DNA of 48,112 bases, from assembly GCA_003249935.1 (NCBI GenBank), contig QKHT01000152.1, positions 1 through 48,112 of the forward strand, written 5' to 3'. The notes beneath the pieces were generated by a model, which had not been told where the DNA came from, searched no databases, and was given only the letters and a program-made list of their open reading frames with translations. Every line of letters starts with the position of its first letter. Positions within the stretch are counted from its first letter, which is position 1. Positions 6,016 through 23,616 of the stretch are shown here, one piece after another. This stretch comes from Bacteroidota bacterium. Lineage in GTDB: Bacteria > Bacteroidota > Bacteroidia > Bacteroidales > UBA5342. A program made the position numbers and the translations under genes.

Positions 6016-6022
6016 ATCCGGT

Positions 6023-6469: not shown

Positions 6470-6473
6470 ACAT

Positions 6474-7277: not shown

Positions 7278-8436
7278 CTACCTGTTCTCCTTTTTTAAAT
7301 TCGGTAATGCCGATAGGCATCATTATCATACTGTTGCTGTTTATAAGTGCATTGATGTGTGCCGCACCGTGATAGGCGACTGGAGTTACTTCCAGGTCTT
7401 CTTCCAGATAGGCGGGAATAAATTGAAGTCGATCGGCCTTTTTACGGGTGTAGTTTTTACTTATAATGCCTTTGGTAATTTTTGGCTTTAATTCGTAACC
7501 CATTAGTTTATAAATAAATGGCTTTAAATAAAGTTCAAATTGAATGAATGATGAGGCCGGGTTACCAGCCAATCCAAAGCAATATTTTTTACCTTTTCTA
7601 GCAAAAAGTACGGGTTTTCCGGGTTGAACCGCAATGCGGGTAAGCAGGGTGGTAAATCCAAGTTCGGCAATCACCGCTGGAATAAAGTCGAAATCGCCTT
7701 CGGATACCCCTCCCGAAAGCACTACCACGTCGCTTTTTTCGAAGGCATAGGCGATTTTTTGTTTGGTCTCTTCAAATTGGTCGCTGATAATGCCGCCGTA
7801 TTTGCCTTTTAATCCCAATTCCTCAAGTTGCGCCATCATTTGCGAGGCATTGGAGTTACGAATTTGGAATGGTTGCGGTATGGCTTCCGGTTCAACCAAT
7901 TCGCTGCCGGTGGCAAATACCGTAACCCGTGGCCGACGATAAACCAACGGTTCGGTTATACCGGCTCCGGCCAAAATGGGGATATGTCGTGCGGTAAGCA
8001 GGCTTCTTTCGCGTAGGGCCAAATCGCCAACTTTTACATCCTCGCCGGTAGTACAGATGTTTGTTTTTGTTTTGGTTATGGTAAAAGTAACCTTGCTTTT
8101 GCCTGTTTCTTCGGCATATTCGCGCATCACTACACAATCGGCACCTTCGGGCACCACTGCACCGGTCATAATTTTCGCACATTGGTTCGGCCCGATGACC
8201 TTTTCGGGTTTTTTCCCTGCCGAAATTACTTCAATAATGTCGAGTGTACCGTTCATATCCTGCATGCGGCAAGCATAACCATCCATGGCCGATTTGTTGA
8301 AGGGGGGAAGTGCAATGTCGTAGTAGGTATCCAAAGCCAAAATGCGCCGGTGCGCATGTTTCAGTTTCACGTGTTCGTGTCCCAACTCTGTTGTGTTCGA
8401 CAGAATGATATCAAGTGCAATTGGATATTCAACCAT
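7261..8436 (-). CDS. moeA: Molybdopterin molybdenumtransferase MoeA
   Basis: The 391-residue protein matches MoeA over its whole length. It has PPFNKSAMDGYACR near residue 44, the domain carrying TGAVVPEGADCVVMRE, the MPT-binding VLSGGVSEGDFDFIP segment, and FGLAGNPASSFIQFELY followed by the C-terminal beta-barrel. MoeA inserts molybdate, or tungstate in tungsten-using organisms, into adenylylated molybdopterin made by Mog. The gene lies between modE and moaA in the minus-strand cofactor run, overlapping moaA by 17 bases. A gap of 146 bases upstream may carry an internal regulatory site. Only one moeA is in the window, so whether it prefers Mo or W cannot be told; the nearby AOR suggests W. 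Confidence 0.96.
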   Translation of the reverse strand: MVEYPIALDIILSNTTELGHEHVKLKHAHRRILALDTYYDIALPPFNKSAMDGYACRMQDMNGTLDIIEVISAGKKPEKVIGPNQCAKIMTGAVVPEGADCVVMREYAEETGKSKVTFTITKTKTNICTTGEDVKVGDLALRERSLLTARHIPILAGAGITEPLVYRRPRVTVFATGSELVEPEAIPQPFQIRNSNASQMMAQLEELGLKGKYGGIISDQFEETKQKIAYAFEKSDVVVLSGGVSEGDFDFIPAVIAELGFTTLLTRIAVQPGKPVLFARKGKKYCFGLAGNPASSFIQFELYLKPFIYKLMGYELKPKITKGIISKNYTRKKADRLQFIPAYLEEDLEVTPVAYHGAAHINALINSNSMIMMPIGITEFKKGEQVDVRRF

Positions 8437-8973: not shown

Positions 8974-9711
8974 TTAGTTGTTACTGCCGCAAACGGTACA
9001 TGCTTTGTTTCGTTCGATGGATATTCGCGTCCATTGGAGTGAACCTGCATCGAAATACATGAGGCCATTGCCGCCGGAATGATCGCCGATAAGATGTTTT
9101 ATGGTAAGGAGTGCCTGCATGGTGCCAACGATACCGGGTACAACGCCCAATACGGGTTTGGGTTCGGTGGTATCTTTCGCCTCGCCAAAAAGGCACTTTA
9201 TGCAAGGAGTTTTTTGGGGAATCAGTAATGCCAGTTGTGCATGCCAACCATCGATACCGGCATGAACCAATGGCGTGCCGGTTCGAACCGAATACCAGTT
9301 CAATACATGCCTTGTGGCAATATTGTCGAGACAGTCCACCATTATGTCGGCCCCATTGGCCAGTTCGGCAATGGTGATATCGTCGATGGTGATGTTGTGC
9401 GTTTTAATGGTAATGTCGGGGTTGAGGTTTGATAAGGTGCGGTAGGCCGAATCGGCTTTTGCCTCGCCAATATCTTTTGTTCCATGCAAGATTTGGCGGT
9501 TCAGGTTCGACAATTCGACTTTATCGCGGTCGCAAACCACCAAATGACCTATGCCTGCTGCCGCCAGATAGTAACATACGGGGCCGCCAAGCCCGCCTGC
9601 GCCAGCTACAAATACCCTGGCTTTTTTTAGCTTTTGCTGAGCCTCTTCGCCAAAGCGCGGAAGGATAAGTTGCCTTTGATACCTGATTTGTTCATTTTCG
9701 CTCATCATCAC
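8974..9711 (-). CDS. moeB: MoeB/ThiF/HesA-family adenylyltransferase (E1-like)
   Basis: The 245-residue protein has the E1-like nucleotide site AGAGGLGGPVCYYLAAAGIG, the metal/ATP loop CDRDKVELSNLNRQILH and the DCLDN motif. Zinc ligands are in CIKCLF and CTVCGS near the C-terminus. There is no rhodanese domain. MoeB adenylates the C-terminal glycine of MoaD so that sulfur can be added for molybdopterin synthase. A MoaD-like partner is encoded on the other side of the divergent aor gene. Three ATG codons in a row open the frame, so the exact first residue is uncertain by two. This is the first gene of the long minus-strand cofactor run. Confidence 0.92.
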   Translation of the reverse strand: MMMSENEQIRYQRQLILPRFGEEAQQKLKKARVFVAGAGGLGGPVCYYLAAAGIGHLVVCDRDKVELSNLNRQILHGTKDIGEAKADSAYRTLSNLNPDITIKTHNITIDDITIAELANGADIMVDCLDNIATRHVLNWYSVRTGTPLVHAGIDGWHAQLALLIPQKTPCIKCLFGEAKDTTEPKPVLGVVPGIVGTMQALLTIKHLIGDHSGGNGLMYFDAGSLQWTRISIERNKACTVCGSNN

Positions 9712-10061: not shown

Positions 10062-11981
10062 ATGTCATTTGGATTTCGGAACAAGATCTTACGGATCAAT
10101 CTTACGGATTCTTCAATAAAAATTGAAAGTCCGGGTGGGGATTTTTTTAAACAGTATATTGGTGGAACCAACATTATTGGCTACTACCTTAACAAGGAGG
10201 TTTCGGGCGATGCCGACCCGCTGGGCCCCGAGAATAAAATTATTGTGGCACCCAGTGTAATTACGGGTTCACCCGTACCGGGTACTTCGCGGTTTTCGGT
10301 TGGAGCCAAAAGTCCGTTGACCGAAGGCTTCGGAAAATCGGAAGCAGGTGGTTTTTTTGGTCCCGAATTGAAATTTGCAGGGTACGATGCCATTATTGTG
10401 GAAGGAAAATCGGCTGAACCATGCTATATCGCCATCCATAATGACAAAGTAGAGATAAAAAGTGCCAAACACCTGTGGGGTAAAGATACCGGTCCGGTAC
10501 AGGATGCCATTCGCGAAGAGATGGGCGAAAGCAAAGCCCGCGTTTTGCAAACCGGCCCCGGAGGCGAAAACCTGATACGATTTGCCGCGTTATGTAACGA
10601 GCTGAAACACTGGAATGGTCGTGGTGGTATGGGTGCAGTATTCGGATCGAAAAATTTGCGGGCCATTGCCGTTAAAGGCGATAACCGCGAGTTTATGAAA
10701 GAAGCCGAAGCTATTAAGGAATATGCATCGTGGTTTGGGAAAAACTGGAAAAACCACGAAAGTCTCGATGGTTTTGGAAAGGTCGGCACCATGTGTTTGC
10801 CAACCATTCTTAGCGGTATGGGTATTCTTCCCACACACAACTTCCAAATGGGCGAATTTGCACATGCCGAAGGCATCGATCGCATAAGCATTGCCAAAGA
10901 GATGGAAGTAAAACGCGAAGGATGTTTTGCTTGTCCTGTGCGTTGCAAACAGGTGGTTAAAAACGAATCATCCGATCCCGATAAAAACATCAACCCTGCA
11001 TACGGTGCGCCGGAGTACGAAACTTTGGGCTCAATCGGGTCAAACTGCGGTATTCCGAATGCGGTGGCTGTTTGTAAAGGAAATGAGTTGATTGCCCGAT
11101 ATGGGTTGGATTCGGTTGGTACAGGTATGACGATTGCCTTTGCAATGGAGTGTTTCGAAAAAGGAATTATTACGAAGGAAGATACCGGTGGTCTCGAACT
11201 GGTGTTTGGAAACGAAAAAGCGTTCCTCGAAATTATTCGTCAGATTGCGTTTCGCGAAGGATTTGGTAATGTGCTGGCCGAAGGTTCGTACCGTGCCGCG
11301 CGCATTATCGGAGGCGATGCACCAAAATATGTGATGGCATCAAAAAAAATGGAGTTTGCCGCACACGAAGGTCGTGGAAAATGGAATGTAGCCCTCGGTT
11401 ATGCTGTATCGCCCAACGGTGGCGACCACGTGGTGGTCGAACACGACCACTGCTTCATGGGTCAACCAAACGAAGATCCTAAGGCTTTGGTAGATGGTAA
11501 TGTATATACGCTCTTTAACTGGGGTATTCGTAAACCATTGGATCCTTGTTCATTGGATCACGATAAAGTTCGTGCATTTGTTATTCTTCAAAAATTGTGG
11601 GGAATTATGGATATGCTCGATATCTGTATTTTCCTTGCCGAACCGAGCCGCCGCATGATTCTTCTCGAACATTTGCCCGACTTGGTGAATAATATTACCG
11701 GCTGGGATTTGAGCCTGAACGAGCTGTTGATGGCTGCCGAACGAAGTGTGGTAATGGGCCGGTTGTTTAATGCCAAATGTGGCATTACTGCAAAAGACGA
11801 AGATTTGCCCGAACGTGTATTTACACCAATGACTAATGGCGCAATTAAAGGTGTGGCTATCGACAGAGCTCAATTCGAAGAAGCCAAGGAATTGTACTAC
11901 CATATGACCGGAATGGATGCCGAAGGTGCACCACTTAAGGGAAAATTGGTGGAACTCCGTCTGGAAGAGCTGATGGCATAA
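10062..11981 (+). CDS. aor: Tungsten-type aldehyde:ferredoxin oxidoreductase (AOR family)
   Basis: The 639-residue protein is full length for AOR. The N-terminal domain has PGTSRFSVGAKSPLT and GGFFGPELKFAGYD, then RGGMGAVFGSKNLRAI, which bind the bis-pterin tungsten cofactor. The [4Fe-4S] cluster cysteines are C288, C291 and C295 (CFACPVRC), with C522 in LDICIFL as the likely fourth ligand. A SPNGGDH motif is near residue 450. AOR oxidises aldehydes to acids, or runs in reverse, with ferredoxin. Some relatives act on aromatic substrates or as class II benzoyl-CoA reductase subunits (BamB), so substrate is open. No ferredoxin subunit gene is adjacent. The gene is divergent from the cofactor operon and is followed by a terminator and moaD. 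Confidence 0.94.
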   Translation: MSFGFRNKILRINLTDSSIKIESPGGDFFKQYIGGTNIIGYYLNKEVSGDADPLGPENKIIVAPSVITGSPVPGTSRFSVGAKSPLTEGFGKSEAGGFFGPELKFAGYDAIIVEGKSAEPCYIAIHNDKVEIKSAKHLWGKDTGPVQDAIREEMGESKARVLQTGPGGENLIRFAALCNELKHWNGRGGMGAVFGSKNLRAIAVKGDNREFMKEAEAIKEYASWFGKNWKNHESLDGFGKVGTMCLPTILSGMGILPTHNFQMGEFAHAEGIDRISIAKEMEVKREGCFACPVRCKQVVKNESSDPDKNINPAYGAPEYETLGSIGSNCGIPNAVAVCKGNELIARYGLDSVGTGMTIAFAMECFEKGIITKEDTGGLELVFGNEKAFLEIIRQIAFREGFGNVLAEGSYRAARIIGGDAPKYVMASKKMEFAAHEGRGKWNVALGYAVSPNGGDHVVVEHDHCFMGQPNEDPKALVDGNVYTLFNWGIRKPLDPCSLDHDKVRAFVILQKLWGIMDMLDICIFLAEPSRRMILLEHLPDLVNNITGWDLSLNELLMAAERSVVMGRLFNAKCGITAKDEDLPERVFTPMTNGAIKGVAIDRAQFEEAKELYYHMTGMDAEGAPLKGKLVELRLEELMA

Positions 11982-12715: not shown

Positions 12716-13750
12716 ATGGGAATAGGTATTTTTTGGGTACTGATGGCAGCGATTATGCTTGGTTTTTACGCCCTTCCAAGCAAATATATGAAGCACTTCT
12801 CTGTCGATAATATTTGGGGCGGATTTTGGCTTTTAGCCATGTTTGTGGTGCCTGTAATTGCCACCAACCTCTTGGTGAAAAATTTAGGCGATACCTATGC
12901 ACAAGTTTCAACCGGCGTAATGGCATCGGTTGTTTTGCTCAGTATCCTTTGGGGTGTGGGCAATCTGTTGTGGGGCATCAGCATCTCCAAAATTGGCATG
13001 GCACTCGGTTTTTCGTTGCTTATTGGTATCACCACTTTAGTGGGTTCAATACTCCCGTTTTTAATGGGTGGCATGGATAAATTGTCAACCACGGGCGGCA
13101 TGGTTATTATGGCCGGTATTTTTGTTATTATGCTGGGTATTATTGCCAATGGTAAGGCCGGACTGATGCGCGAAAAGCACGAATCAGAACTGGCACCTCA
13201 ATCATCCAAAGACCGTTCCGATATGAAAGCCGGTATTATAATGTGTGTAATTGGTGGTTTGTGTGCCGCAGGATTCAACCTGTCGTACCATGTTGCCGAT
13301 AACATTGGGCATATTGGTGCCATTTCGCAAGATCAGTATGGCAACTCACCATGGATTGCCCGTTTGGCCGTAATGTTACCTTCATTTATAGGTAGTGGTA
13401 TTGCCACAGTGGGTTATTTTGTATTTCGGTTGAGCCAAAGCCACAGCTGGGGAGGTTTTGTGGTCAAAGGCAGTGCAAAAAACTGGATGCTGCTGTTGGT
13501 AATGGCATTGGTTTATTGTGCCTCACTAATTATATACGGATTGGGAGCATACAAGCTTGGTGCCATGGGTACTTCGGTAGGTTTTGCCATCTTTCAGTCG
13601 GGTTGCATTATGGTGGCCAATCTTTTAGGCATTTTTACCGGCGAATGGGAGAAAGCCGGTGCTAAGTCGCGTACCTGGTTATTCTCGGGTTTGGCGGTAA
13701 TGTGCGTGGGCATCATTATTATTGCCGTTGGTAATAGCTTGCTTGTATAA
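12716..13750 (+). CDS. rhaT: RhaT-family sugar/H+ symporter
   Basis: From the ATG at 12716 the protein has 344 residues, the same length as E. coli RhaT. It begins MGIGIFWVLMAAIMLGFYAL, and about ten hydrophobic helices can be counted, with typical glycine-rich turns such as ILWGVGNLLWGISISKIG. A longer start at 12629 would add a non-family extension and overlap the promoter. RhaT proteins import L-rhamnose with protons, but in this neighbourhood no rhamnose isomerase or kinase is present, so the substrate may be a different sugar or sugar acid. It is the only transporter in the cluster and heads the apparent operon that continues with the GH2 gene 44 bases downstream. The family assignment is firm, the substrate is not. 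Confidence 0.85.
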   Translation: MGIGIFWVLMAAIMLGFYALPSKYMKHFSVDNIWGGFWLLAMFVVPVIATNLLVKNLGDTYAQVSTGVMASVVLLSILWGVGNLLWGISISKIGMALGFSLLIGITTLVGSILPFLMGGMDKLSTTGGMVIMAGIFVIMLGIIANGKAGLMREKHESELAPQSSKDRSDMKAGIIMCVIGGLCAAGFNLSYHVADNIGHIGAISQDQYGNSPWIARLAVMLPSFIGSGIATVGYFVFRLSQSHSWGGFVVKGSAKNWMLLLVMALVYCASLIIYGLGAYKLGAMGTSVGFAIFQSGCIMVANLLGIFTGEWEKAGAKSRTWLFSGLAVMCVGIIIIAVGNSLLV

Positions 13751-13794
13751 AATCTGGTAGAATTTATTTTAGAACATCTATAAACTATTTTCGA

Positions 13795-16344
13795 GTGAAT
13801 ACAAAACAAAAACTTTTAGCACTGCTTATTATGGGGTGCTCATTAGGTGTTATGGCTCAGCCCAATACCACCTATTCGCATCAGCAAAAAGATGGTACTG
13901 TTCGCATATTCAACAGTATGGATTGGCGAATGAAAATGATGTTGCCCGGTGAAGGGGTAAAAAAAGGATTGCCGAAACTTCCGCCGGAAGACATTGAGAC
14001 TTTGGTATGGAATGCGGCAACCGTACCCGGCGATGTGTATACCGATTTGTGGCATAACGGCGTAATCGAAGATCCTTATTTTGGCCGTAATAGTGTAAAG
14101 GCACAATGGGTACAGCAGTACGAATGGTGGTATGCCTACCAGTTTAATGTAAAGGAAGATATCAAAGATCAGGTGGTTGACATTGTTTTCGAAGGTGTGG
14201 ATTTTAGTTGCGAAGTGTGGCTCAATGGTCATTATCTTGGCAGGCACGAAGGTGCATTCACCAAATTCAGTTTTAATGTAAACGAATACCTTCGTATTCA
14301 TCGTTATAAACATCTCGAAAGCTGCAACATGCTTATCGTAAAACTCGACCCGCCACCGGCAGTAAATTCATTAGTGGCCGGACGCAAAACGCCATGGTTC
14401 GGCGATTACTGGCGCGATCTTACGCCGTTTGGTATTTATAAATCGGTTAAAATGGTACGAACCGGAAACGTTCGTTTCACCGATGTGTTTGCAAATCATA
14501 AGATTAACAAGGATGGTTCGGCCGACATAAGCATGGAATATACCGTGCAAAACACCACCAATCAGCCACACGAGATGACCTTTATGACCACCCTCGATGG
14601 CAAAAACTTCGACATGAAGGAGATGGAATATACCTTTAAACAGGTTGTAAATCCGGGCATTCATAAGGTGATTAAAAACATCCATCTTAACAATCCAAAA
14701 CTCTGGTGGCCCTGGGATATGGGCGATCCGAATTTGTATGTTGCCAAAACATCGATTGGTGAGGGGAAGGCCTTCCATGATTTTAACGAAACGACATTTG
14801 GTATTCGCGAAATTACTTCGCAATGGAATCCCGGATTTAAAAAGGATGTGGATGTAACCTATCCGCGTTCGACCTACATCAATGGTAAGTTTATTTTCAT
14901 TCGATCGGCGTGTTGGGGTGGACCGCCGGATATTTTCACCGGCCGTTCGGGTGTAGAGAAATACAAGAAACTTATACAAATGGCCAAGGATGCCAACATG
15001 AACAACATCCGTATTTTTGGATGGCATCAGCCCGAAATTGCCGAATTTTACCAGTATTGCGACGAAATGGGCATTACCATATGGCAGGATATGATTCCGA
15101 TGGGTACCGGTAATATTCCCACCGAACGGGAAAAAATCAACGAAATTCTAAATACAGCCGTGGCTGTAACCAAAGAGCGTCGCAACCATCCGTCGTTTAT
15201 TCAATGCGAAGGTGGCGAAGAGATGATGTTGCGTACACGCGACGCGCACTTTGGCCGTGCATTCCTCGAAGAATTGGGCGATTCAATTACCAAGTACTTC
15301 CATATTCCGTATGTGCCCGATTCGCCACTCACCTGCGAAAAATCGCTGGAAGCCGGGTTCAAACCCAAAGAAGCGGTTCATGCCTTACGCTATTTTTACG
15401 AAATGGGTCGCTGGTTACACGAAGATTGGTACCAAACCAATGCCAATGGTTTCCCCATTGTGCCCGAGTTTGCAGTCACTTCGGTACCCTCTGTCGAAAG
15501 TCTGAAAAAATTCATTCCCGAAAACGAAATGTGGCCTCCCGGCTTGAGCTGGGGGCATCACTGGGCCGACCTTATTCGTTTGCGCATGCAAAACTGGGAT
15601 GTATTTGGTAACGAAATGAAAGATAACCTCGAACAATTTGTAAATGCCACACAGGATGCACAAGGGATTATTTTCCAGAATGGAATTGAGCATTTCCGTC
15701 GTGCAAAACCAAGTTTGAGTGGCATCTCGCTATGCCATTTTATTACTTACTGGCCCGATATGAAATGGGGTATTGTGGATAATTATACCCAACCTAAACG
15801 GTCGTACGATTTCGTAAAGAAAGCGTATCAGCCGTTGCTCGTTAATTTTGAATTTAAAAAACGCCGCTGGCACAACGACGAACCATTTGTTGGTAATATC
15901 TGGATAATCAACGATTTATATAAGAGCTACGCCAACTGCAAAGTAAAATTCGAAATGAAGGACGATTGGGGTAAAGTGCTTGTATCCAAATCTTTCGATG
16001 TTAAAAAAATCGACGAAAACAGCGCCAGATCCTTTTTTCCGATCAACGAAAAAGTGCTTGGTTCATCCAAACAAAAATTCTTCGTAAACCTCGAACTCAC
16101 CGATGCTGCAGGTAAGGTTATTTCGCACAACGACTATTTCTTCCTTATCGGCGACCAAACTGAGGCTACCGCTTATTTCAATAAATGGAAAGATAAACGA
16201 CTCGAAATCGAAAATGGCAACGGTCATGGGGGTTATGGAACCTATTTCTTCGAATTTAAAGCACTAACCGGCGAAGATGGCGAATCGTATGAAAGTGATA
16301 TGCAAATTCCACGCGCACGTGGTTTTGGCAACGAAAAAGAGTAA
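13795..16344 (+). CDS. Secreted glycoside hydrolase family 2 protein (beta-mannosidase-like)
   Basis: The 849-residue protein starts with GTG and a clear signal peptide, MNTKQKLLALLIMGCSLGVMA. Residues about 70-225 form the sugar-binding jelly-roll (VPGDVYTDLWHNG, FEGVDFSCEVWLNGHYLGRH), followed by an immunoglobulin-like domain and the TIM barrel from about 360. Barrel landmarks are NMNNIRIFGWHQPE and GITIWQDM. The acid/base site, usually GNE or GNNE, reads CEGGEE at residues 471-476, and the nucleophile is likely E558 in PEFAVTS. The changed acid/base context suggests an unusual substrate. It is probably periplasmic and releases the sugar handled by the downstream genes. It lies 44 bases after rhaT and 22 bases before the first solute-binding gene. 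Confidence 0.87.
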   Translation: MNTKQKLLALLIMGCSLGVMAQPNTTYSHQQKDGTVRIFNSMDWRMKMMLPGEGVKKGLPKLPPEDIETLVWNAATVPGDVYTDLWHNGVIEDPYFGRNSVKAQWVQQYEWWYAYQFNVKEDIKDQVVDIVFEGVDFSCEVWLNGHYLGRHEGAFTKFSFNVNEYLRIHRYKHLESCNMLIVKLDPPPAVNSLVAGRKTPWFGDYWRDLTPFGIYKSVKMVRTGNVRFTDVFANHKINKDGSADISMEYTVQNTTNQPHEMTFMTTLDGKNFDMKEMEYTFKQVVNPGIHKVIKNIHLNNPKLWWPWDMGDPNLYVAKTSIGEGKAFHDFNETTFGIREITSQWNPGFKKDVDVTYPRSTYINGKFIFIRSACWGGPPDIFTGRSGVEKYKKLIQMAKDANMNNIRIFGWHQPEIAEFYQYCDEMGITIWQDMIPMGTGNIPTEREKINEILNTAVAVTKERRNHPSFIQCEGGEEMMLRTRDAHFGRAFLEELGDSITKYFHIPYVPDSPLTCEKSLEAGFKPKEAVHALRYFYEMGRWLHEDWYQTNANGFPIVPEFAVTSVPSVESLKKFIPENEMWPPGLSWGHHWADLIRLRMQNWDVFGNEMKDNLEQFVNATQDAQGIIFQNGIEHFRRAKPSLSGISLCHFITYWPDMKWGIVDNYTQPKRSYDFVKKAYQPLLVNFEFKKRRWHNDEPFVGNIWIINDLYKSYANCKVKFEMKDDWGKVLVSKSFDVKKIDENSARSFFPINEKVLGSSKQKFFVNLELTDAAGKVISHNDYFFLIGDQTEATAYFNKWKDKRLEIENGNGHGGYGTYFFEFKALTGEDGESYESDMQIPRARGFGNEKE

Positions 16345-16366
16345 TAATAAAGAGTAATACAAATAT

Positions 16367-17521
16367 ATGAGTAACGAAGTGAAATTAAAGGGAATTACAT
16401 GGAATCACAGCCGTGGTTTTACCTCTATTGTGGCTTGTGCACAACGTTTTGGTGAGTTGAACCCCGGAGTCGAAATTTCGTGGGAAAAACGGTCGTTGCA
16501 GGCTTTTGCCGACGAACCGATTAATAAATTGGCCGAACGATTCGATTTTCTGATCATAGATCACCCATGGGCGGGTTTTGCAGCCCGTACCAAGGTTATT
16601 TTGCCACTCGACACCATGTTGCCTGCCGAATACATGGATAATCAGGCCGAAAATACCGTGGGCCGCTCGCACGAAAGCTATTCGTACGAAGGACATCAAT
16701 GGGCTTTGGCCATCGATGCAGCCACGCCGGTTGCTGCCAGTCGACCCGATTTGCTCGATAAACACGGCCTCGTGTTACCCAAAACTTTCAAAGAGCTTAT
16801 CGGGTTTTCTAAAAACGGCATGGTTGCCATTCCGGGCATCCCTCAGGATACACTCATGAGTTTCTACATGATTTGCTCCACCATGGGCGAAGATGTAGCA
16901 TCGACTCCAACGCATTTTATCTCCGAAAAGATGGGGCTTACCGCACTCGAGATGCTTCGCGAATTGGGCAAAAACATCCGTCGCGAAAGTTACGACTGGA
17001 ATCCTATTAAAGTATATGAGGCCATGACACTAACCGACGATTATGTGTACAGCCCGTTTGCTTATGGTTATACCAACTACTCGCGTTTGGGATATGCCCG
17101 TAAATTCCTGAAATTTCACGACATGGTCGAAATCGATGGGCAAAAACTTATTACTACCCTGGGTGGTACAGGTTTGGCTATTTCGGCCAATTGCAAACAC
17201 CTCGATGTGGCTGCAAAATTTGTGGAGTTTGCAGGCAGCGAAGCAATACAAAAAACACTCTTCTTCGATAATGGCGGTCAGCCGGGCCACCGGCAAGCCT
17301 GGTTGGATACACACACCAACCATGTAACAACCGACTATTTCAAAGATACGCTTCCGGCACTCGACCGTGCATTTTTACGTCCGCGTTACCACGGACACAT
17401 GTATTTTCAGGACCGTGGCGGTGCGCCAATTCGCGAATACATGATGAATGGCGGCGATCCGCATCAGCTCCTCAAACATTTGAACGATGTTTATCTCCAA
17501 TCGCTCAAAGAAAAGGAGTAA
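16367..17521 (+). CDS. UgpB-like extracellular-type solute-binding protein without signal peptide (1)
   Basis: The 384-residue protein has the two-lobed solute-binding pattern of carbohydrate ABC transporters: PGVEISWEKRSLQAFADEP, FDFLIIDHPWAGFA, a hinge region WALAIDAATPVAASRPDLLD, and TTLGGTGLAISANCKHLDVA near the C-terminal third. It begins MSNEVKLKGITWNHSRGFTS, with no signal peptide or lipobox. An in-frame TAA lies only 12 bases upstream, so a missed N-terminal export signal is excluded. No ABC permease or ATPase gene is present in the cluster. It may be a cytosolic binding protein, chaperone or sensor for the pathway's small molecule. A second such protein lies downstream. The gene is followed by a hairpin and then the CoA-transferase pair. 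Confidence 0.83.
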   Translation: MSNEVKLKGITWNHSRGFTSIVACAQRFGELNPGVEISWEKRSLQAFADEPINKLAERFDFLIIDHPWAGFAARTKVILPLDTMLPAEYMDNQAENTVGRSHESYSYEGHQWALAIDAATPVAASRPDLLDKHGLVLPKTFKELIGFSKNGMVAIPGIPQDTLMSFYMICSTMGEDVASTPTHFISEKMGLTALEMLRELGKNIRRESYDWNPIKVYEAMTLTDDYVYSPFAYGYTNYSRLGYARKFLKFHDMVEIDGQKLITTLGGTGLAISANCKHLDVAAKFVEFAGSEAIQKTLFFDNGGQPGHRQAWLDTHTNHVTTDYFKDTLPALDRAFLRPRYHGHMYFQDRGGAPIREYMMNGGDPHQLLKHLNDVYLQSLKEKE

Positions 17522-17561
17522 CAAAAAACTTATAAACAGAGATTTTGTTATTATGGTTGAA

Positions 17562-17586
17562 CCTCAGGGCCGTTGTGCCTCTGAGG
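17562..17586 (+). other. Intercistronic hairpin
   Basis: CCTCAG-GGC at 17562-17570 pairs with GCC-T-CTGAGG at 17577-17586, a nine-base-pair stem with one bulged T and a six-base loop, in the 103-base gap between the first solute-binding gene and the CoA-transferase pair. There is no T-tract, so it is more likely a processing or stability element than a terminator. Confidence 0.5.
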
Positions 17587-17624
17587 ATCAATTGTTTAAA
17601 AACATACAGATAAAATTGTAAAAT

Positions 17625-18770
17625 ATGAAACGTCCATTAGAAGGCATTTTGGTTCTCGAATTTTGCCAGTTTATGGCCGGCCCTTCTGCCGGATTAAAAT
17701 TGGCCGATATGGGGGCTCGCGTCATTAAAATAGAGCGCCCGGTTCATGGCGAAGGGGGTCGACAGATTGCCTTGAAAAACATTTTTTACGACGGAAGCGG
17801 CATCGTTTTCCATACGGCCAACCGCAACAAGGAGTCGTTTGCGGCCGACTTAAAAAATCCCGAAGATTTGGCAATTGTTAAAAAACTCATAGGACAGGCC
17901 GATGTAATGACCCATAACTTCCGTCCCGGAGTAATGGAAAAAATCGGTCTCGATTACGAAACCGCAAAGGCCTTAAATCCGAAACTCATTTATGCAACCG
18001 TTACCGGATATGGCACTACCGGCCCATGGGTTGGAAAACCCGGACAGGATTTGCTGGCGCAAAGTATTTCGGGTTTGAACCACTTAACCGGCGATTGTAA
18101 CGATACGCCAACACCCATGGCATTGGCGATATCCGATATGTATTGCGGTACGCATCTTACTCAGGGTATTTTGGCCGCATTGGTAAAACGTGGCAAAACC
18201 GGCCGGGGGTCGTGGGTTGAGGTAAGTTTGCTCGAATCTACACTCGACCTTCAGTTCGAAGTGCTTACCACCTGGCTCAACAGTGGAAAACAAAAACCAC
18301 AACGCGCAAAACAAGGCGCCGCACATGCATTTTTAAAAGCACCTTATGGTGTGTATGAAACCAAAAACGGACATCTTGTACTGGGAATTTCCAATATAGT
18401 TGAGTTGGCGGGGCTTTTAGGCAACGATAAACTCGGTAAATTTACAACGCCCGAGCAGTGCTTCAACGAACGCGACGAAATTATGGATATTCTTCGCCAA
18501 CAGTTTATCACCAATACCACCGAACATTGGTTGGGCATACTCGAACCGGCAGGTGTGTGGTGCTCGCAGGTTATGGGATTCAAAGAGTTAACCTCACACG
18601 AAGCGTTTAAAACCCTACGGTTCATGCAGGATATCACCATGAAAGATGGCTCATGCTTTACCACCGTTCGCTGCCCGATTCGGTTCAACAACGAACGGCT
18701 TTTCTCGGCCAAAGGGGCACCACGTGTGGGCGAAGACAACGATAAAATCAAACAAGAATTTAATCTCTGA
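17625..18770 (+). CDS. CaiB/BaiF family CoA-transferase (1)
   Basis: The 381-residue protein is a class III CoA-transferase. It shows the opening LVLEFCQFMAGPSAGLKLAD, MGARVIKIERP, the ANRNKESFAADLKNPE segment, HNFRPGVMEKIGLDYE and the GYGTTGPWVGKPGQDLLAQ stretch. The expected catalytic aspartate is D171 in ISDMYCG. These enzymes move CoA from one acyl-CoA to a carboxylic acid via an aspartyl-CoA thioester. Its neighbour 5 bases downstream is a paralogue, about half identical by eye over the N-terminal 150 residues. The two may be a pair with different substrates or a heteromer. The context implies that the sugar-derived product is a carboxylic acid activated with CoA. Confidence 0.92.
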   Translation: MKRPLEGILVLEFCQFMAGPSAGLKLADMGARVIKIERPVHGEGGRQIALKNIFYDGSGIVFHTANRNKESFAADLKNPEDLAIVKKLIGQADVMTHNFRPGVMEKIGLDYETAKALNPKLIYATVTGYGTTGPWVGKPGQDLLAQSISGLNHLTGDCNDTPTPMALAISDMYCGTHLTQGILAALVKRGKTGRGSWVEVSLLESTLDLQFEVLTTWLNSGKQKPQRAKQGAAHAFLKAPYGVYETKNGHLVLGISNIVELAGLLGNDKLGKFTTPEQCFNERDEIMDILRQQFITNTTEHWLGILEPAGVWCSQVMGFKELTSHEAFKTLRFMQDITMKDGSCFTTVRCPIRFNNERLFSAKGAPRVGEDNDKIKQEFNL

Positions 18771-18775
18771 GAATT

Positions 18776-19918
18776 ATGAAACCGCTACAGGATATTTTAG
18801 TCATCGATTTTAGTCAATATCTTTCGGGGCCGGCTGCCAGTCTCAAACTGGCCGATATGGGCGCCCGTGTAATTAAAGTGGAGCAGCCCAACGGCGGCGA
18901 TCCCTGCCGCGATTTATTGATGGCCAACGTGCGCCTCGATGGCACTTCTTCCATGTTTTCGGCCATCAACCGTAATAAGGAAAGTATCGTGGTCGACCTC
19001 AAAAACGCCGACGAAAAGGCGCGGATCATGCAGCTTATCGCAAAAGCCGATGTACTTATTCAGAATTTCAGACCCGGCGTTCCCGAACGTTTGGGCATCG
19101 ACTACGAAAGTGTGAAGGCCATTAATCCGGGTATTGTATATGGTACCATTTCGGGTTATAGCATCGAAGGGCCATGGGCAAAACGACCGGGACAGGATTT
19201 GCTGGTTCAGGCCGTATCGGGCGTTACATTATTAAGTGGCAATGCAAATAAAGGTCCGGTGCCGTTGGGTATTGCCGTAGCCGATCTTATGGCAGGTGCA
19301 CATTTGGTTCAAGGTATTCTGGCCGGTCTGGTTCAAAAATCAATTACTGGCGAAGGGTGCAAGGTGTCGGTAAACATGCTCGAATCGATGCTCGATTTGC
19401 AGTTCGAAGCTGTTACGCTCTTTCATAACGATGGTGGTCAACCGGTACAACGTACCGCATCGAATAATGCACAACCTTTTCTTGGTGCACCATATGGCGT
19501 GTACCAAACCGCCGATGGCTTTATGGCTCTGGCTATGGGTTCGGTTACCAAATTAGGCGAACTGATCGGGTGTAAAACCTTAACAGAATATGCCGATCCG
19601 GCAAGCTGGTTCACCTCACGCGATGTGCTGAAACAGGCTTTGGCCGACCATCTCAAAACCAATTCCACCGCACATTGGCTCTCTATTCTCGAACCAGCCG
19701 ATTTTTGGTGCGCCGAAGTAATGGATTGGGATACACTCATTGAACACGATGGGTTTAAAGTGATCGAGATGTTGCAGGATGTAACTACTAACAGTGGGTT
19801 TACCTATCAAACTACACGCTGCCCCATTCGTTTCGATGGTAAAACGCTGACATCGCCGGTTGGATTTCCGAAAATGGGCGAGCATACCGTATCGGTGTTT
19901 AACGAATTTTTAAACTAA
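18776..19918 (+). CDS. CaiB/BaiF family CoA-transferase (2)
   Basis: A second 380-residue class III CoA-transferase, five bases after the first. It has the same landmarks: VIDFSQYLSGPAASLKLADM, RVIKVEQPNGGDPCRD, INRNKESIVVDLKNADE, QNFRPGVPERLGIDYESV and GYSIEGPWAKRPGQDLLVQ. The catalytic aspartate is expected at D170 in AVADLMAG. Both copies keep the residues expected for activity and neither looks degenerate, so a duplication followed by specialisation is likely. The following solute-binding gene begins 4 bases after the stop codon, pointing to tight translational coupling. Substrate specificity cannot be judged from sequence. Confidence 0.92.
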   Translation: MKPLQDILVIDFSQYLSGPAASLKLADMGARVIKVEQPNGGDPCRDLLMANVRLDGTSSMFSAINRNKESIVVDLKNADEKARIMQLIAKADVLIQNFRPGVPERLGIDYESVKAINPGIVYGTISGYSIEGPWAKRPGQDLLVQAVSGVTLLSGNANKGPVPLGIAVADLMAGAHLVQGILAGLVQKSITGEGCKVSVNMLESMLDLQFEAVTLFHNDGGQPVQRTASNNAQPFLGAPYGVYQTADGFMALAMGSVTKLGELIGCKTLTEYADPASWFTSRDVLKQALADHLKTNSTAHWLSILEPADFWCAEVMDWDTLIEHDGFKVIEMLQDVTTNSGFTYQTTRCPIRFDGKTLTSPVGFPKMGEHTVSVFNEFLN

Positions 19919-19922
19919 GTGC

Positions 19923-21155
19923 ATGTCGGGTAATATATTCAGGATAGCCGTTCGAAAATTCGACCCATTCGAAAAAGCAATTCAACTGTTTTGGGAAAAT
20001 TTTTGTCGCGAAACAGGTTGCATGCTTCAACTCGAAATGGTGCCAATGGATTTGCATCCGTTGTATCACAGTATTTTAAAGGATGGCGGCTTGCAAAACG
20101 GGCAATGGGATGTGGCCCATATCAATACCGACTGGTTGGCCGAAGCGGTTGAAAAAGGCGCTTTGGAAGAGTTGTCGGCTTGGATAGGTGCTTCGCCTCC
20201 TGAAAATTTTCCCAACGGATGGTCGGCATCGTTGCTGGGAATGCAACGGTTCGAAAATCGTGTGTATGGATTGCCGTTTCACAACGGGCCGGAGTGTTTC
20301 ATTTATCGCAAAGACCTTTTTGAATCGGAAGAAGAGCAAAAGGCATTTGCCGCATTGTACGGTAAACGGTTGGTTGTACCCCAAACCTGGGACGATTTAA
20401 TGGAAGTGGCTGCCTTTTTCAATCGGCCCGAACAGGGTTTGTATGGCACCGCCTTTGCTGGTTTTCCCGATGGACACAATACGGTATTCGATTTTTGCCT
20501 TCAGGTGTGGACACGTGGAGGCGATATTCTCGATGCACAAAACCGGGTTCAACTCTACTCTCCGCAAGCAGTGGAAGGCATGCAGTTTTATCGCGAAGCC
20601 TTGCGCAATACACGTGCCATCCATCCCGAATCGCCCGTCTTCGATTCGGTTCAGCTGGGTATGGCATTTGCCAACGGCAACGTGGCCATGATGGTCAACT
20701 GGTTTGGGTTTGCATCCATGAGCGATGTGTACGAAAAATCGAACGTAAAAGGCAAGGTCGATATCGCCAATGTGCCAATGGGTATGGGGGGTGAACCGGT
20801 ATCGTTAAATGCCTACTGGATGTATAGTCTGGGTAGTGGTTCGGTGCATAAACAAACGGCTTACGACTTTATACGCTATGCGACCACCGCACAAAACGAT
20901 AAGTTACTTACCCTTTGCGGGGGCATCGGTTGCCGAAAATCGACCTGGAGCGATGATGAAATCAACAGCATGGTGCCTTATTACCATAAGCTCGATATTT
21001 TACACCGCAATGCAAAATCGTTGCCTCGAATGGCCAACTGGTCATCGATAGCCGATGTGGTTGATGCGCTGGTTCTGGAGGTTATGAATTCGGATAAGGA
21101 TATTGAAACGCTTTTGATTCAGGCGCAACAAAAAGTGGATGTCTTACTCCGATAA
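19923..21155 (+). CDS. UgpB-like solute-binding protein without signal peptide (2)
   Basis: The 410-residue protein has the fold pattern of sugar-type solute-binding proteins: HPLYHSILKDGGLQNGQWD, DVAHINTDWLAEAVEKGALE, LPFHNGPECFIYRKDLFE, WDDLMEVAAFFNRPEQGLYG and a late KQTAYDFIRYATTAQNDKLL. It starts MSGNIFRIAVRKFDPFEKAI, with neither signal peptide nor lipobox, and an in-frame TAA lies 12 bases before the ATG, so no export signal has been missed. It is only distantly similar to the first such protein in the cluster. It is embedded between the second CoA-transferase (4-base gap) and the Gfo/Idh gene (40-base gap), without any permease. A cytosolic role linked to the pathway's intermediates is inferred. 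Confidence 0.83.
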   Translation: MSGNIFRIAVRKFDPFEKAIQLFWENFCRETGCMLQLEMVPMDLHPLYHSILKDGGLQNGQWDVAHINTDWLAEAVEKGALEELSAWIGASPPENFPNGWSASLLGMQRFENRVYGLPFHNGPECFIYRKDLFESEEEQKAFAALYGKRLVVPQTWDDLMEVAAFFNRPEQGLYGTAFAGFPDGHNTVFDFCLQVWTRGGDILDAQNRVQLYSPQAVEGMQFYREALRNTRAIHPESPVFDSVQLGMAFANGNVAMMVNWFGFASMSDVYEKSNVKGKVDIANVPMGMGGEPVSLNAYWMYSLGSGSVHKQTAYDFIRYATTAQNDKLLTLCGGIGCRKSTWSDDEINSMVPYYHKLDILHRNAKSLPRMANWSSIADVVDALVLEVMNSDKDIETLLIQAQQKVDVLLR

Positions 21156-21195
21156 TATTATTTGCACTTTTTTTTTGATTAGACAACAGGAATTT

Positions 21196-22275
21196 ATGAA
21201 TATCGACTACGCATATATTTTACCCAAAACCAAACAACCCATTGTAATTATCGGCGCCGGTGGAATCGTTCGCGATGCCCATTTACCTGCATACCGCAAA
21301 GCGGGGTTTGAGGTTTTTGGTATTGTGAACCGAACCGTGGAACGGGCGAAAAAACTGGCTGAGGAGTACCATATTCCGCATGTTTTTGCCACCGTGGACG
21401 ATGCGGTGGCCATGGCGCCTACAAATGCAGTTTACGATTTAACGCTGATGCCCGATCAGTTTGTCGAAACGCTCGAAAAGCTGCCCGATGGTTCACCCGT
21501 ACTCATACAAAAGCCGCTTGGCGACTATTTCGAACAAACCAAAGCCATTGTAGCGGTTTGCAAACGGAAAAAACTGATAGCGGCAGTAAATTGCCAGTTG
21601 CGGTTTGCCCCATTTATTATGGCGGCCCGAAACTTAATAGATAAGGGTGCTATTGGCGAGGTTTACGACATGGAGGTGCGGGTTACGGTTTATACCCCCT
21701 GGGAAATTTTCCCGCATGTGGTTAATCATCCAAGACTCGAAATTCAGCAGCACTCCATACATCATATCGATCTTGTGCGCTCGTTTTTGGGCGATCCGAA
21801 AGGGATTATGGCTCATACCGTAAAACATCCGGCAAAACCAATGTCCAGCACCCGCACCAATGTCATCATGGTATACAACGATTGTTTGCGCGCACTGGTA
21901 AGCACCAATCACGACCATAATTTTGGTCCCGATCATCAGGAGAGTTACGTAAAGTGGGAAGGAACCAAAGGTGCGGTATACGCCAAAATGGGCTTGCTCA
22001 TGAACTATCCGAAGGGTGTTCCCGATTTGTTCGAATATTGTGTGGTGGAAGATGGTAAACACCCCGAATGGGTTAGAGTACCCATCGAAGGCACCTGGTT
22101 TCCCGATGCTTTTATCGGCTCCATGTCGTCGCTCATGCGGTATGTCGAAGGTTCGACCGAAATACTCGAAACCTCTGTGGACGATGTAATGAAAACCATG
22201 TTGCTGGTGGAAGCTGCGTATGCTTCGAGCGATATGGGGGGATTGGCTCCCGATTATCATTCGGTTCAGCCATAA
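21196..22275 (+). CDS. Gfo/Idh/MocA family NAD(P)-dependent oxidoreductase
   Basis: The ATG at 21196 gives 359 residues beginning [20 protein letters not shown], so the nucleotide-binding GAGGIV sits at residues 20-25. A longer start at 21139 would overlap the previous gene. The EKP-like motif is IQKP (K106), and the sugar-binding HHID is at 189-192 in [14 protein letters not shown]. These enzymes oxidise or reduce sugars, sugar acids or inositols with NAD(P). Its place after the CoA-transferases suggests it forms the oxidised acid or keto intermediate. The gene is followed 28 bases later by the MaoC gene. Substrate unknown. The family is certain from the Rossmann motif, the lysine and the histidine pair. 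Confidence 0.92.
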
Positions 22276-22303
22276 GAATGAAAATAGTTTAAAAGATAAA
22301 GAT

Positions 22304-22753
22304 ATGTTTGTACGTTCGCAATTTTACGAAGATTATGTATTGGGGCATTACCGCGAAACATTGGGTAGAACCATTACCGAAACCGATTTTGTGATTCATG
22401 CCGGCCAAACCGGCGATTTCTTCCCGCATCATATGGATGCTGAATGGTGTAAGACACAGCCATTTAAGCAACGTATTGCTCATGGTACGCTTACGTTTAG
22501 TGTGGCAATTGGTATGACGGCAACCGAAATTAATCCGGAGGCATTTTCGAAGGGTTACGACAAACTTCGGTTTGTAAAACCGGTGTACATCGGCGATACC
22601 ATACATGTAAAAGTAACGATTTCCGAGAAGTCGGCTTCGAACAAGCCGGGCTTGGGAACTGTGGTAGAGCATGTGGAAGTAATAAACCAGCGCGATGAAT
22701 TGGTGTTGGTTTGCGACCATATTTTATTGGCCAAAATGAAAGCGGGTGTTTAA
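22304..22753 (+). CDS. MaoC-type hotdog-fold dehydratase/hydratase
   Basis: Starting at ATG 22304 gives 149 residues beginning [21 protein letters not shown] longer frame from 22220 overlaps the previous gene and is not needed. The region [20 protein letters not shown] followed by D45 and [10 protein letters not shown] is the R-specific enoyl-CoA hydratase signature. The catalytic pair would be D38 and H43. The family normally has Asn-Pro-Ile/Leu-His there; this protein has Phe-Pro-His-His, so the Asn is replaced. This suggests a substrate different from crotonyl-type acyl-CoA. It is the last gene of the cluster and probably hydrates or dehydrates the CoA ester made by the CoA-transferases. 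A terminator follows, shared with iclR. Confidence 0.9.
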
Positions 22754-22786: not shown

Positions 22787-22830
22787 GTCGCCGGGTTGTT
22801 TTTTAACAAATACCCAGCGACGTTCTTATT
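22787..22830. terminator. Bidirectional terminator between maoC-type gene and iclR
   Basis: GTCGC-C-GGGT at 22787-22796 pairs with ACCC-A-GCGAC at 22812-22821, a nine-base-pair stem with one mismatch, followed on the plus strand by a T-rich tail to about 22831. The right arm lies inside the last codons of the convergent iclR gene, so one hairpin ends both transcripts. Confidence 0.65.
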
Positions 22831-23567
22831 TTTGAAACTGTTTCAACTAATTCTGTTTCAATTACTTCGGCTCCAACCAGTTTGCGCATTTGCGACGTAA
22901 GAGTCGACACGGCCAACACGGCAATTATCTCGCTCTGCATGTTGTATATCGGCGACGAAAAGTCGGTAACCCCTTCGGTAAGCAAACTTTTGCTTACATT
23001 ACACGCCTTGCCTCTCAATTCGTTGAGTTCGGCCATAAACTGCGCTTTTTCTTCATCATTCATCGCAATATAAGTGTCGCAACTGCTTAGCACATGTGCA
23101 CACCGTTCGGCATCGAGATTGGCCAGAATAACTTTGCCCGAGTTGGTTTTTTCGAGGGGAAAAAGGCTGCCGATTTCAACCGATAGTGTAACCGGTGTGC
23201 GGCTCTTAGCCTGCCCGATAACCATTAGTTTGTTATGATAAAGTACGCTAAGGTGAACCGACTGGTTGATGACCTGAGCCAGATTTTCCATGTGTATTTC
23301 CGAACCTTTTACCAGAATTTCCACCGGCGAATGGTGATGGGCCAACTGAAACAGCCGTAGCGTAAGGCTGTATTTTCCCGAGAGCGGATCCTTGGCGATA
23401 TACCCACGTTTTTCGAGGCTTACCAGCATCCGGTATATTTCGTTTTGTGTTTTTTCTATGCCTGTGGCTATTTCCAGTTGCGATTGTGGAAACGATTGTG
23501 CCGAGAGAAACTCCAGAATATCCAAGCCTTTATCGAGGGCAGGCGCATAATATTTGGTTGTTGTCAT
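22803..23567 (-). CDS. IclR-family transcriptional regulator
   Basis: The start at 23567 gives 254 residues beginning MTTTKYYAPALDKGLDILEF. The N-terminal winged helix includes FPQSQLEIATGIEKTQNEIY and RMLVSLEKRGYIAKD, as in IclR proteins. The C-terminal effector domain has VGQAKSRTPVTLSVEIGSLF and LEKTNSGKVILANLDAERC, near the usual small-molecule site. A GTG/ATG further upstream (23603) would add residues not in the family. It is convergent with the catabolic cluster and a good candidate for its regulator, since IclR proteins often sense aromatic or carboxylic pathway intermediates. A pair of CCGGTAA repeats lies upstream of its start. Confidence 0.93.
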   Translation of the reverse strand: MTTTKYYAPALDKGLDILEFLSAQSFPQSQLEIATGIEKTQNEIYRMLVSLEKRGYIAKDPLSGKYSLTLRLFQLAHHHSPVEILVKGSEIHMENLAQVINQSVHLSVLYHNKLMVIGQAKSRTPVTLSVEIGSLFPLEKTNSGKVILANLDAERCAHVLSSCDTYIAMNDEEKAQFMAELNELRGKACNVSKSLLTEGVTDFSSPIYNMQSEIIAVLAVSTLTSQMRKLVGAEVIETELVETVSKIRTSLGIC

Positions 23568-23616
23568 ATTTGTTTTCTTTTGTTCGAACCTTTTACTTCC
23601 CATCGGGGCAGATTCT

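Follow-up and report, generated by a model that had tools for sequence, protein, structure and literature searches.

What do two proteins with the fold of sugar-binding proteins, apparently made without an export signal, contribute to a catabolic gene cluster that contains no permease of the ATP-binding cassette (ABC) type? This question is raised by contig QKHT01000152.1 of the Bacteroidota bacterium assembly GCA_003249935.1. The 48,112 nucleotides analysed, referred to as the window, carry the two solute-binding protein (SBP) genes, designated SBP1 and SBP2, on either side of two adjacent genes for family III coenzyme A (CoA)-transferases, designated CoAT1 and CoAT2. Comparison of this cluster with its counterparts points to a recurring SBP/CoA-transferase partnership in distant bacteria that may represent an undescribed way to break down sugar acids. 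The genes of the cluster and the convergent regulatory gene are:

12716-13750 (+), RhaT-type transporter of the DMT family (Pfam PF06379, 79.5 bits; 65% identity to RhaT in the Zobellia uliginosa cluster L052)
13795-16344 (+), secreted GH2 glycosidase with beta-mannosidase-like architecture (Pfam GH2 domains and Mannosidase_ig)
16367-17521 (+), SBP1, signal-less protein with SBP fold (Pfam SBP_bac_1)
17625-18770 (+), CoAT1, family III (CaiB/BaiF) CoA-transferase (PF02515, 319.9 bits)
18776-19918 (+), CoAT2, second family III CoA-transferase (PF02515, 317.7 bits)
19923-21155 (+), SBP2, second signal-less protein with SBP fold, from another subfamily (Pfam SBP_bac_1, 95.8 bits)
21196-22275 (+), Gfo/Idh/MocA-type NAD(P) sugar dehydrogenase, termed Gfo (PF01408 and PF22725; 75% identity in L021, L038 and L041)
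22307-22753 (+), MaoC-type enoyl-CoA hydratase/dehydratase (PF01575, 80.8 bits; 85-88% identity in L021, L038 and L041)
22803-23603 (-), IclR-family regulator, convergent (PF01614 and PF09339)

The open reading frames and Pfam matches agree with the gene content, the orientation on a single strand, the tight packing and the convergent IclR gene given in a preliminary description of this DNA. The intergenic gaps comprise 22 nt (GH2-SBP1), 103 nt (SBP1-CoAT1), 5 nt (CoAT1-CoAT2), 4 nt (CoAT2-SBP2), 40 nt (SBP2-Gfo) and 31 nt (Gfo-MaoC), and both binding proteins have SBP_bac_1/8 matches in Pfam. The GH2 protein, the N-terminus of which looks like a signal peptide by eye, has beta-mannosidases as closest PDB relatives and is 68-71% identical to the GH2 proteins adjoining SBP1 in L049 and L052-L054. 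Besides CoAT1 and CoAT2, no PF02515 match occurs in the assembly (4.27 Mb in 326 contigs, 97.5% complete); since the same gene order is moreover found elsewhere, the cluster represents more than a chance arrangement. All cluster proteins with NCBIfam matches, including GH2, fall short of the equivalog cut-offs, and RhaT scores 227.7 bits against a cut-off of 369 for the name L-rhamnose/proton symporter. Substrate names are therefore not derivable from these models.

Linkage of SBP1 to the CoA-transferase pair

The named loci represent the best 80 of at least 534 SBP1 relatives, with one genome per species, a selection in which close relatives are favoured. In 74 of these 80, hereafter called paired loci, SBP1 is followed at once and on the same strand by CoAT1 and CoAT2 (both score best to CoAT2 in L102), and in 64 of the 74 the SBP1 stop codon and the CoAT1 start are separated by at most 20 nt. 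All six exceptions are Chloroflexota assemblies, with a CoA-transferase gene 2.9-4.4 kb from SBP1 (L081, L106, L107 and L116) or none within the stretch (L083 and L093). The single CoA-transferase of L107, which is located upstream of SBP1 and matched by both queries, was excluded from junction and fusion counts. When five genomes with a non-adjacent SBP1 gene were searched (G286 and those of L081, L083, L093 and L116), a CoAT2 relative of 56-57% identity was detected in each of them.

A survey of 296 genomes of the phylum detected a strong SBP1 relative (at least 48% identity) in 16, and full-length CoA-transferases of at least 45% identity occurred in the same 16 genomes, exactly two in each. 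The next CoA-transferase by E-value showed 36% identity, and none other exceeded 39%. The co-occurrence corresponds to a Fisher p value of 9e-27, with this value and the underlying counts uncorrected for shared ancestry. The SBP1 search listed 18 genomes, among which G009 (E 7e-7) and G070 (E 6e-4) contain weak, exported-looking relatives that were excluded from the 16. In genome G286, SBP1 is located about 60 kb from the genes CoAT1-CoAT2-SBP2-Gfo-MaoC on the same contig; the retention of both unlinked parts argues for function and not for hitch-hiking. An accident of operon structure was rejected in view of the co-occurrence in 16 of 296 genomes together with the unlinked genes of G286, L083 and L093. 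SBP1 is thus very probably coupled functionally with the CoA-transferases. The tie between binding proteins and CoA-transferases that had been proposed from the window alone is borne out for SBP1, which was accompanied by CoA-transferases in every genome examined and never found without them, whereas SBP2 proved to be optional and linked to Gfo. As a side observation, the SBP1 gene of G286 (locus L126, contig C11) adjoins genes for an IclR regulator, an alpha-L-fucosidase identified by Pfam and, judged by eye, a SusCD-like pair as well as sugar isomerase- and kinase-like proteins.

With regard to the CoA-TRANSFERASES, Asp 171 of CoAT1 and Asp 170 of CoAT2 are each kept in 74 of 74 orthologues. 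Asp 171 aligns to an aspartate in two solved relatives, which we take to be the catalytic residue of family III CoA-transferases. In three Hymenobacter loci (L066, L070 and L096) CoAT1 and CoAT2 form one open reading frame, which suggests that the two proteins may act as a heterodimer. A fusion of an SBP with a CoA-transferase, sought as proof of a complex, was found in none of the 80 loci, in which the only fusions were those of CoAT1 with CoAT2.

SBP1 genes beside or near CoA-transferase genes occur in six phyla, namely Bacteroidota, Pseudomonadota (alpha, beta and gamma classes), Planctomycetota (Rhodopirellula, L103), Chloroflexota, Bacillota (Cohnella, L114) and Actinomycetota (Streptomyces, L028). 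Among plasmids, 146 records with SBP1 relatives were obtained by tblastn, and a CoA-transferase/SBP pair is also present on pSymB of Sinorhizobium meliloti. The arrangement SBP1-CoAT1-CoAT2-SBP2-Gfo-MaoC, accompanied by RhaT and IclR, was detected in Persicobacter psychrovividus (pPP8), Rufibacter tibetensis and Persicobacter sp. JZB09. SBP2 was found in 10 of the 16 genomes with SBP1 and in none of the 280 others at E 1e-40; the gene is also present in Croceibacterium (protein identity 44%) and the haloarchaeon Halostagnicola larsenii (36%), with CoA-transferase, MaoC, Gfo and alpha-L-fucosidase genes as neighbours. In a phylogenetic tree, the CoAT1 and CoAT2 proteins of Bacteroidota, Gammaproteobacteria and Planctomycetota formed two groups with support values of 96/98 and 89/98, the latter being below the mark of the tool, and the Cohnella pair was placed outside both. 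According to this topology, CoAT1 and CoAT2 seem to be ancient paralogues that moved as a pair. The module is widespread and probably mobile. Separately, a second, distant CoA-transferase clade is accompanied by SBP1-like proteins and a crotonase in Streptomyces, Pseudosulfitobacter, Variovorax and Sinorhizobium (L028, L031, L033 and L034), together with an FAH-family hydrolase in L028, L031 and L033.

Binding-protein folds without export signal

The preliminary description had noted in-frame stops upstream of both binding-protein genes, and these are present: each ATG is preceded by a TAA codon three codons away, at 16355-16357 for SBP1 (start at 16367) and at 19911-19913 for SBP2 (start at 19923). 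The stops just upstream leave no room for an encoded N-terminal signal on either protein. This feature is conserved, since a strongly hydrophobic segment at the N-terminus is missing from all 50 SBP2 orthologues and from 78 of 80 SBP1 orthologues, in the latter also when the frame is read from its most upstream start. The assessment was made by reading frame and hydropathy, and the argument rests on the position of the start codon. Conservation sets in no more than about 15 residues after the likely start codon. In Flavobacterium (L104 and L105) a hydrophobic stretch appears only if the SBP1 frame is extended upstream; a processed export signal was not found, with these two frames being extendable. 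Twelve other binding proteins from the same records have signal peptides visible by eye. The hydropathy values of these controls (1.57-3.53) overlap slightly with those of the CoA-linked proteins (0.24-1.72). Judged from their reading frames, SBP1 and SBP2 are predicted to stay in the cytosol.

The absence of an ABC transporter, likewise part of the earlier claims, holds for the window cluster, which contains no ABC permease gene; a Pfam scan of the window proteins up to position 23603 detected an ABC membrane domain only at 1-1182, far from the cluster. Among the paired loci, permease relatives were limited to three of 74 (L069, a metagenome-assembled genome of Bacteroidota, L082 and L114). 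Four ABC-transporter queries were without match at E 1e-10 in the stretches of P. psychrovividus pPP8, R. tibetensis and Persicobacter sp. JZB09, and no ABC permease was detected in L021, L022 and L025 at the same threshold.

Outside the Bacteroidota, ABC permeases are frequent in orthologous clusters (Alpha- and Betaproteobacteria, Actinomycetota, Chloroflexota and Bacillota), so that one of the findings named in the preliminary description as refuting its proposal was, taken literally, made; mostly, however, they are accompanied by a separate, signal-bearing binding protein. Thirteen plasmid loci from outside the Bacteroidota, either annotated or named, were surveyed (L024 and L026-L036, with L024 of S. 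meliloti counted once). Permease relatives were present in L026, L027, L028 and L031-L036 and an ATPase relative only in L024 and L029; L030 has no permease relative at E 1e-10, yet a permease is annotated at the edge of this locus. A separate exported binding protein was visible in L026, L027, L030 and L032-L036 as well as in the permease-bearing Chloroflexota loci L083, L106 and L116, and the stretches of L028 and L031 end before such a gene could show. The two permease genes downstream of SBP1 in L083 were rejected as its ABC partners, as a 417-codon frame for an exported binding protein lies in between.

AlphaFold2 models with high mean predicted local distance difference test values (94.3 for SBP1 and 93.3 for SBP2) displayed a complete binding-protein fold in both cases. 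The closest structures were SmoF (template-modelling score 0.83) and TMBP (Z 37.7) for SBP1 and MalE3 for SBP2. An alignment of 26 SBP1 sequences from several phyla contained 41 invariant columns, including T11, W12, H14, R16, D65, H66, D117, G266-G269, R338 and R340; its conserved motifs are TWxHxRG, DHP, DAA, GGTG and RPR. In 26 SBP2 sequences, ranging from Bacteroidota to the haloarchaeon, H120, G122-E124, D183-N186 and R338/S340-W342 are conserved (motifs HxGPE, DGHN and RxSTW). Judging from their position after strands, the conserved residues of both proteins would line the cleft. SBP1 and SBP2 are different families that follow different rules of co-occurrence.

Gene-content rules and a possible pathway

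The rules for SBP2 were deduced from the genes surrounding the CoA-transferases. SBP2 is present in 50 of the 74 paired loci and an aldehyde dehydrogenase (ALDH) in 21, with no locus containing both, and SBP2 occurs together with MaoC in 46. The 70 Gfo-positive loci comprise 47 with SBP2 only, 10 with a lactonase homologue only, nine with both and four with neither, where SBP2 was accepted at 200 bits or more, which excludes exported relatives. Among the four (L031, L032, L034 and L093), L032 and L034 have annotated SMP-30/gluconolactonase genes. In the 25 crotonase loci devoid of Gfo or MaoC, neither SBP2 nor the lactonase homologue was present. The gene directly behind CoAT2 in 93 loci was SBP2 in 56 cases, crotonase in 14, MaoC in five, the lactonase homologue in four (L127, L128, L150 and L151) and SBP1 in two, with nothing recognised in nine and something further off in three.

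At the genome level, compared as plain counts and with the presence of Gfo checked in seven of 14 genomes, a relative of the L127 lactonase (52-100% identity) was found in four of six SBP2-lacking genomes (G033, G269, G214 and G150) and in none of ten SBP2-bearing ones. The relatives in nine of these ten are distant ones (27-30%), and the genome of the window contains none at E 0.001. The two other SBP2-lacking genomes are G107, with no lactonase match and the crotonase/ALDH variant, and G182, with a 32% relative. L-fucono-1,5-lactonase was the only NCBIfam family listed at E 1e-10 for the lactonase homologues of L127, L128 and L114, which remain below its cut-off of 400 bits (159.9, 144.6 and 203.6 bits). 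A pyranose dehydrogenase yields a lactone, whereas an aldehyde dehydrogenase yields the acid directly. Since SBP2 goes with Gfo, is absent with ALDH and has its slot held elsewhere by a lactonase homologue, this optional protein looks like a lactone-handling part.

A similar alternation was observed for the hydratases. MaoC is present in 47 paired loci and crotonase, an enoyl-CoA hydratase unrelated to MaoC, in 22, with both in none and neither in five (L042, L044, L050, L057 and L073); four of these five loci are cut off 1.1-7.7 kb beyond CoAT2. The plasmid locus L029 contains relatives of both. The mutual exclusion of two unrelated hydratase folds is the strongest indication that the pathway includes the (de)hydration of a CoA ester, which is probably the case. 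The MaoC-catalysed step proposed earlier is retained in part, with the reverse direction, hydration, also being conceivable.

Clues to the substrate were obtained from neighbouring genes. Relatives detected at E 1e-20 in the 74 paired loci include a FucP-type permease (40), GH106 (26), GH78 (23), a GH29 fucosidase (3), lactonase (9) and FAH proteins (7) related to 2,4-didehydro-3-deoxy-L-rhamnonate hydrolase; mutarotase relatives occur in orthologous clusters as well. FucP passes its NCBIfam cut-off (367 versus 280 bits). In L021, L038, L041 and L047, genes for an alcohol dehydrogenase and a KduD-like short-chain dehydrogenase/reductase are inserted between Gfo and MaoC. A 2-keto-3-deoxy-L-galactonate 5-dehydrogenase followed by a KduD-type enzyme catalyses consecutive steps from 2-keto-3-deoxy-L-galactonate, as described in an Aquimarina study (PMC10163077). 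These neighbours fit L-galacto-configured sugars and a 2-keto-3-deoxy product, neither being proven, and L-fucose, L-rhamnose or L-galactose-like sugars are the likely substrate class. Agarase-domain proteins are encoded near four crotonase loci (L037, L039, L045 and L061) and the SBP2 locus L044, and a porphyranase near L048; such neighbours fall mainly within the crotonase/ALDH variant. An agar-only substrate was discarded.

The window mixes both variants, combining the GH2 (68-71%) and RhaT (65%) proteins of the crotonase variant with the SBP2-Gfo-MaoC half of the other. In the same genome, crotonase (53%) and ALDH (70%) genes of the alternative variant are located at a contig end (L122, G000:C310, 15430-17647), behind Pfam-confirmed sulfatase, GH36, GH2 and GLAA-B-type beta-helix protein genes and further sulfatase-like and GH2-like frames. 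A second region (L162, G000:C83, 9392-16468) encodes an alcohol dehydrogenase with 72% identity to that inside the Flammeovirga module, an ALDH over the PRK10090 cut-off, an enolase-superfamily enzyme, an aldose-1-epimerase-like protein (by eye), a second RhaT-type transporter and a GH43-clan protein, and looks like an anhydrogalactose-type pathway. On the basis of these genes, the organism probably uses sulfated galactans as food. The Agarase_CBM profile had no match in this genome, but as the control genomes likewise gave none, this is no sign of absence.

Just upstream of the cluster, the window contains a molybdo/tungstopterin maturation island (10062-11981 on the plus strand, 8974-9711 and 5086-8436 on the minus strand). 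It encodes an aldehyde:ferredoxin oxidoreductase (AFOR domains), a MoeB/ThiF-like protein (by eye), MoeA, a MoaA-like radical S-adenosylmethionine protein, MoaC, a MOSC/MoCF protein and a LysR-type helix-turn-helix protein. In the loci compared, this island does not accompany the module. The tungsten-type aldehyde oxidoreductase (10062-11981) was considered as a module member and left out, as no relative was labelled in 96 compared loci.

The reading that accounts for the full chemistry is a CoA-dependent route from aldonate to 2-keto-3-deoxyaldonate for L-fucose- or L-galactose-like sugars, to which we assign an even chance. GH2 would free the sugar, RhaT would import it and the Gfo enzyme would oxidise it to the aldonolactone, which SBP2, judged from gene content, would handle in place of a lactonase. 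CoAT1 and CoAT2, together with SBP1 as a putative obligate cytosolic partner (the linkage is observed, the complex would follow from it), would charge the aldonate with CoA. MaoC would remove the 3-hydroxyl group of the CoA ester to give a 2-keto-3-deoxy-acyl-CoA, the CoA of which may be passed to the next aldonate in a CaiB/CaiD-like manner. Only tentatively can this route be extended to the view that both SBP families are cytosolic enzymes jointly running CoA-dependent sugar-acid dehydration, with SBP2 as an aldonolactonase and SBP1 as a subunit without which the CoA-transferase could not work, contributing either to catalysis or to substrate binding.

Several observations weigh against this interpretation. 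MaoC could hydrate rather than dehydrate. Nine loci contain both SBP2 and a lactonase homologue, namely Halostagnicola and eight Flavobacteriaceae that encode the lactonase on the other strand (cluster c16). The 50 fold matches listed for each of SBP1 and SBP2 are binding proteins or maltose-binding protein fusions and include no SBP-derived enzyme, which is no evidence that none exists. The sugar is not fixed, as GH78, GH106, GH29, agarase and porphyranase neighbours vary by locus. The FAH (376/500 bits), lactonase (269/400) and KduD (325/339) relatives are below the name-giving NCBIfam cut-offs, as are the alcohol dehydrogenase relatives for that name, and the likeness to enzymes described in PMC10163077 is one of enzyme type, not of sequence. 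The best KduD match in the genome of the window reaches only 37%, leaving that downstream step without support there. Finally, enolase-superfamily enzymes are encoded beside the module in L026, L027, L032, L034, L036, L056, L062, L072, L106 and L116; given these and the one in the genome of the window, the CoA route is no simple stand-in for them.

A broader enzymatic explanation, which we regard as possible though doubtful, takes both proteins as catalytic binding-protein folds, with SBP2 as an aldonolactonase and SBP1 as a hydrolase, an isomerase or an acyl-transfer subunit acting on a sugar acid or CoA ester. It accords with the deep conservation of polar motifs over several phyla, with the largely complementary distribution of SBP2 and the lactonase homologue and with the precedent of an SBP evolving into a dehydratase, outlined in work on cyclohexadienyl dehydratase (PMC7683729). 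However, the nearest folds belong to transport proteins without catalytic function, strict conservation would equally result from binding a single constant ligand, for instance CoA, and the nine loci with SBP2 and a lactonase homologue have to be accommodated.

The roles as carriers, sensors or scaffolds favoured by the preliminary description persist as one option, but an enzyme or a CoA-transferase subunit fits the gene-content rules better. As cytosolic sensors or carriers, SBP1 and SBP2 would bind a sugar or its acid and either pass a signal on to IclR or supply substrate, without belonging to the CoA-transferase. An IclR relative is indeed present in 36 of the 74 paired loci at E 1e-20, and the distant SBP1 gene of G286 has IclR and fucosidase neighbours; yet no IclR relative was found within the stretch in the other 38, the perfect co-occurrence is with the CoA-transferases, and the lactonase homologue in the SBP2 slot is left unexplained, so that we consider such roles unlikely. 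That the proteins are relics of ABC transporters, carried along by operon structure after loss of signal and permeases, is suggested by their fold and their homology to exported sugar-binding proteins but is highly improbable in view of intact SBP1 frames (378-399 aa) in all 80 loci, 91 columns without variation among 51 sequences, the recurrence of the signal-less start in different phyla and the persistence of an unlinked SBP1 gene in G286.

Comparison with known systems

No report on a module joining these proteins was found among open-access papers, the scope of the search being such that subscription papers were outside it; in the main text of the Zobellia carrageenan study (PMC5698469), 'CoA' never appears as a whole word. 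Labels such as 'extracellular solute-binding protein' are routinely given by fold alone, and the conserved set described here is neither predicted to be extracellular nor, seemingly, devoted to transport. If the proposed CoA-dependent route is correct, it would provide a pathway for CoA-transferases with no assigned substrate and, in bacteria that degrade polysaccharides of algae and plants, a further, CoA-dependent way of catabolising sugar acids. It would also enlarge the set of natural examples in which a binding protein became an enzyme or part of one.

Cyclohexadienyl dehydratase illustrates the SBP fold serving as an enzyme, according to PMC7683729; SBP1 and SBP2 belong to a different SBP subfamily, with a putative activity. 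They share their fold with sugar-binding proteins of the UgpB, MalE and SmoF type but, unlike these, lack an export signal and co-occur with CoA-transferases, and a permease is absent from the window cluster and present in few Bacteroidota loci.

Benzylsuccinate CoA-transferase is a heteromer, and we know of no binding protein associated with it. Like the CoAT pair, it is a family III enzyme with subunits (PDB 9fn0, 'subunit of'), whereas the fusion of the pair in three Hymenobacter loci distinguishes the latter.

The non-phosphorylative pathway of L-fucose and L-rhamnose consists of a dehydrogenase, a lactonase, an enolase-type dehydratase and a 2,4-diketo hydrolase. The module resembles it in the Gfo-type dehydrogenase and in the lactonase, mutarotase and FAH relatives of orthologous clusters; beyond it, CoA-transferases, SBP1 and MaoC are added, and SBP2 is present instead of the lactonase in most Bacteroidota loci seen. 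In the CaiB/CaiD system, a CoA-transferase and a crotonase dehydrate carnitine, with CoA being handed from product to substrate. Unlike this system, the module comprises two CoA-transferases, two SBP-fold proteins, a sugar dehydrogenase and glycosidases, uses either MaoC or crotonase and would act on an aldonate. Both nevertheless unite a family III CoA-transferase and an enoyl-CoA hydratase in one unit, and by analogy a CoA-catalytic dehydration would be the simplest reading of the module.

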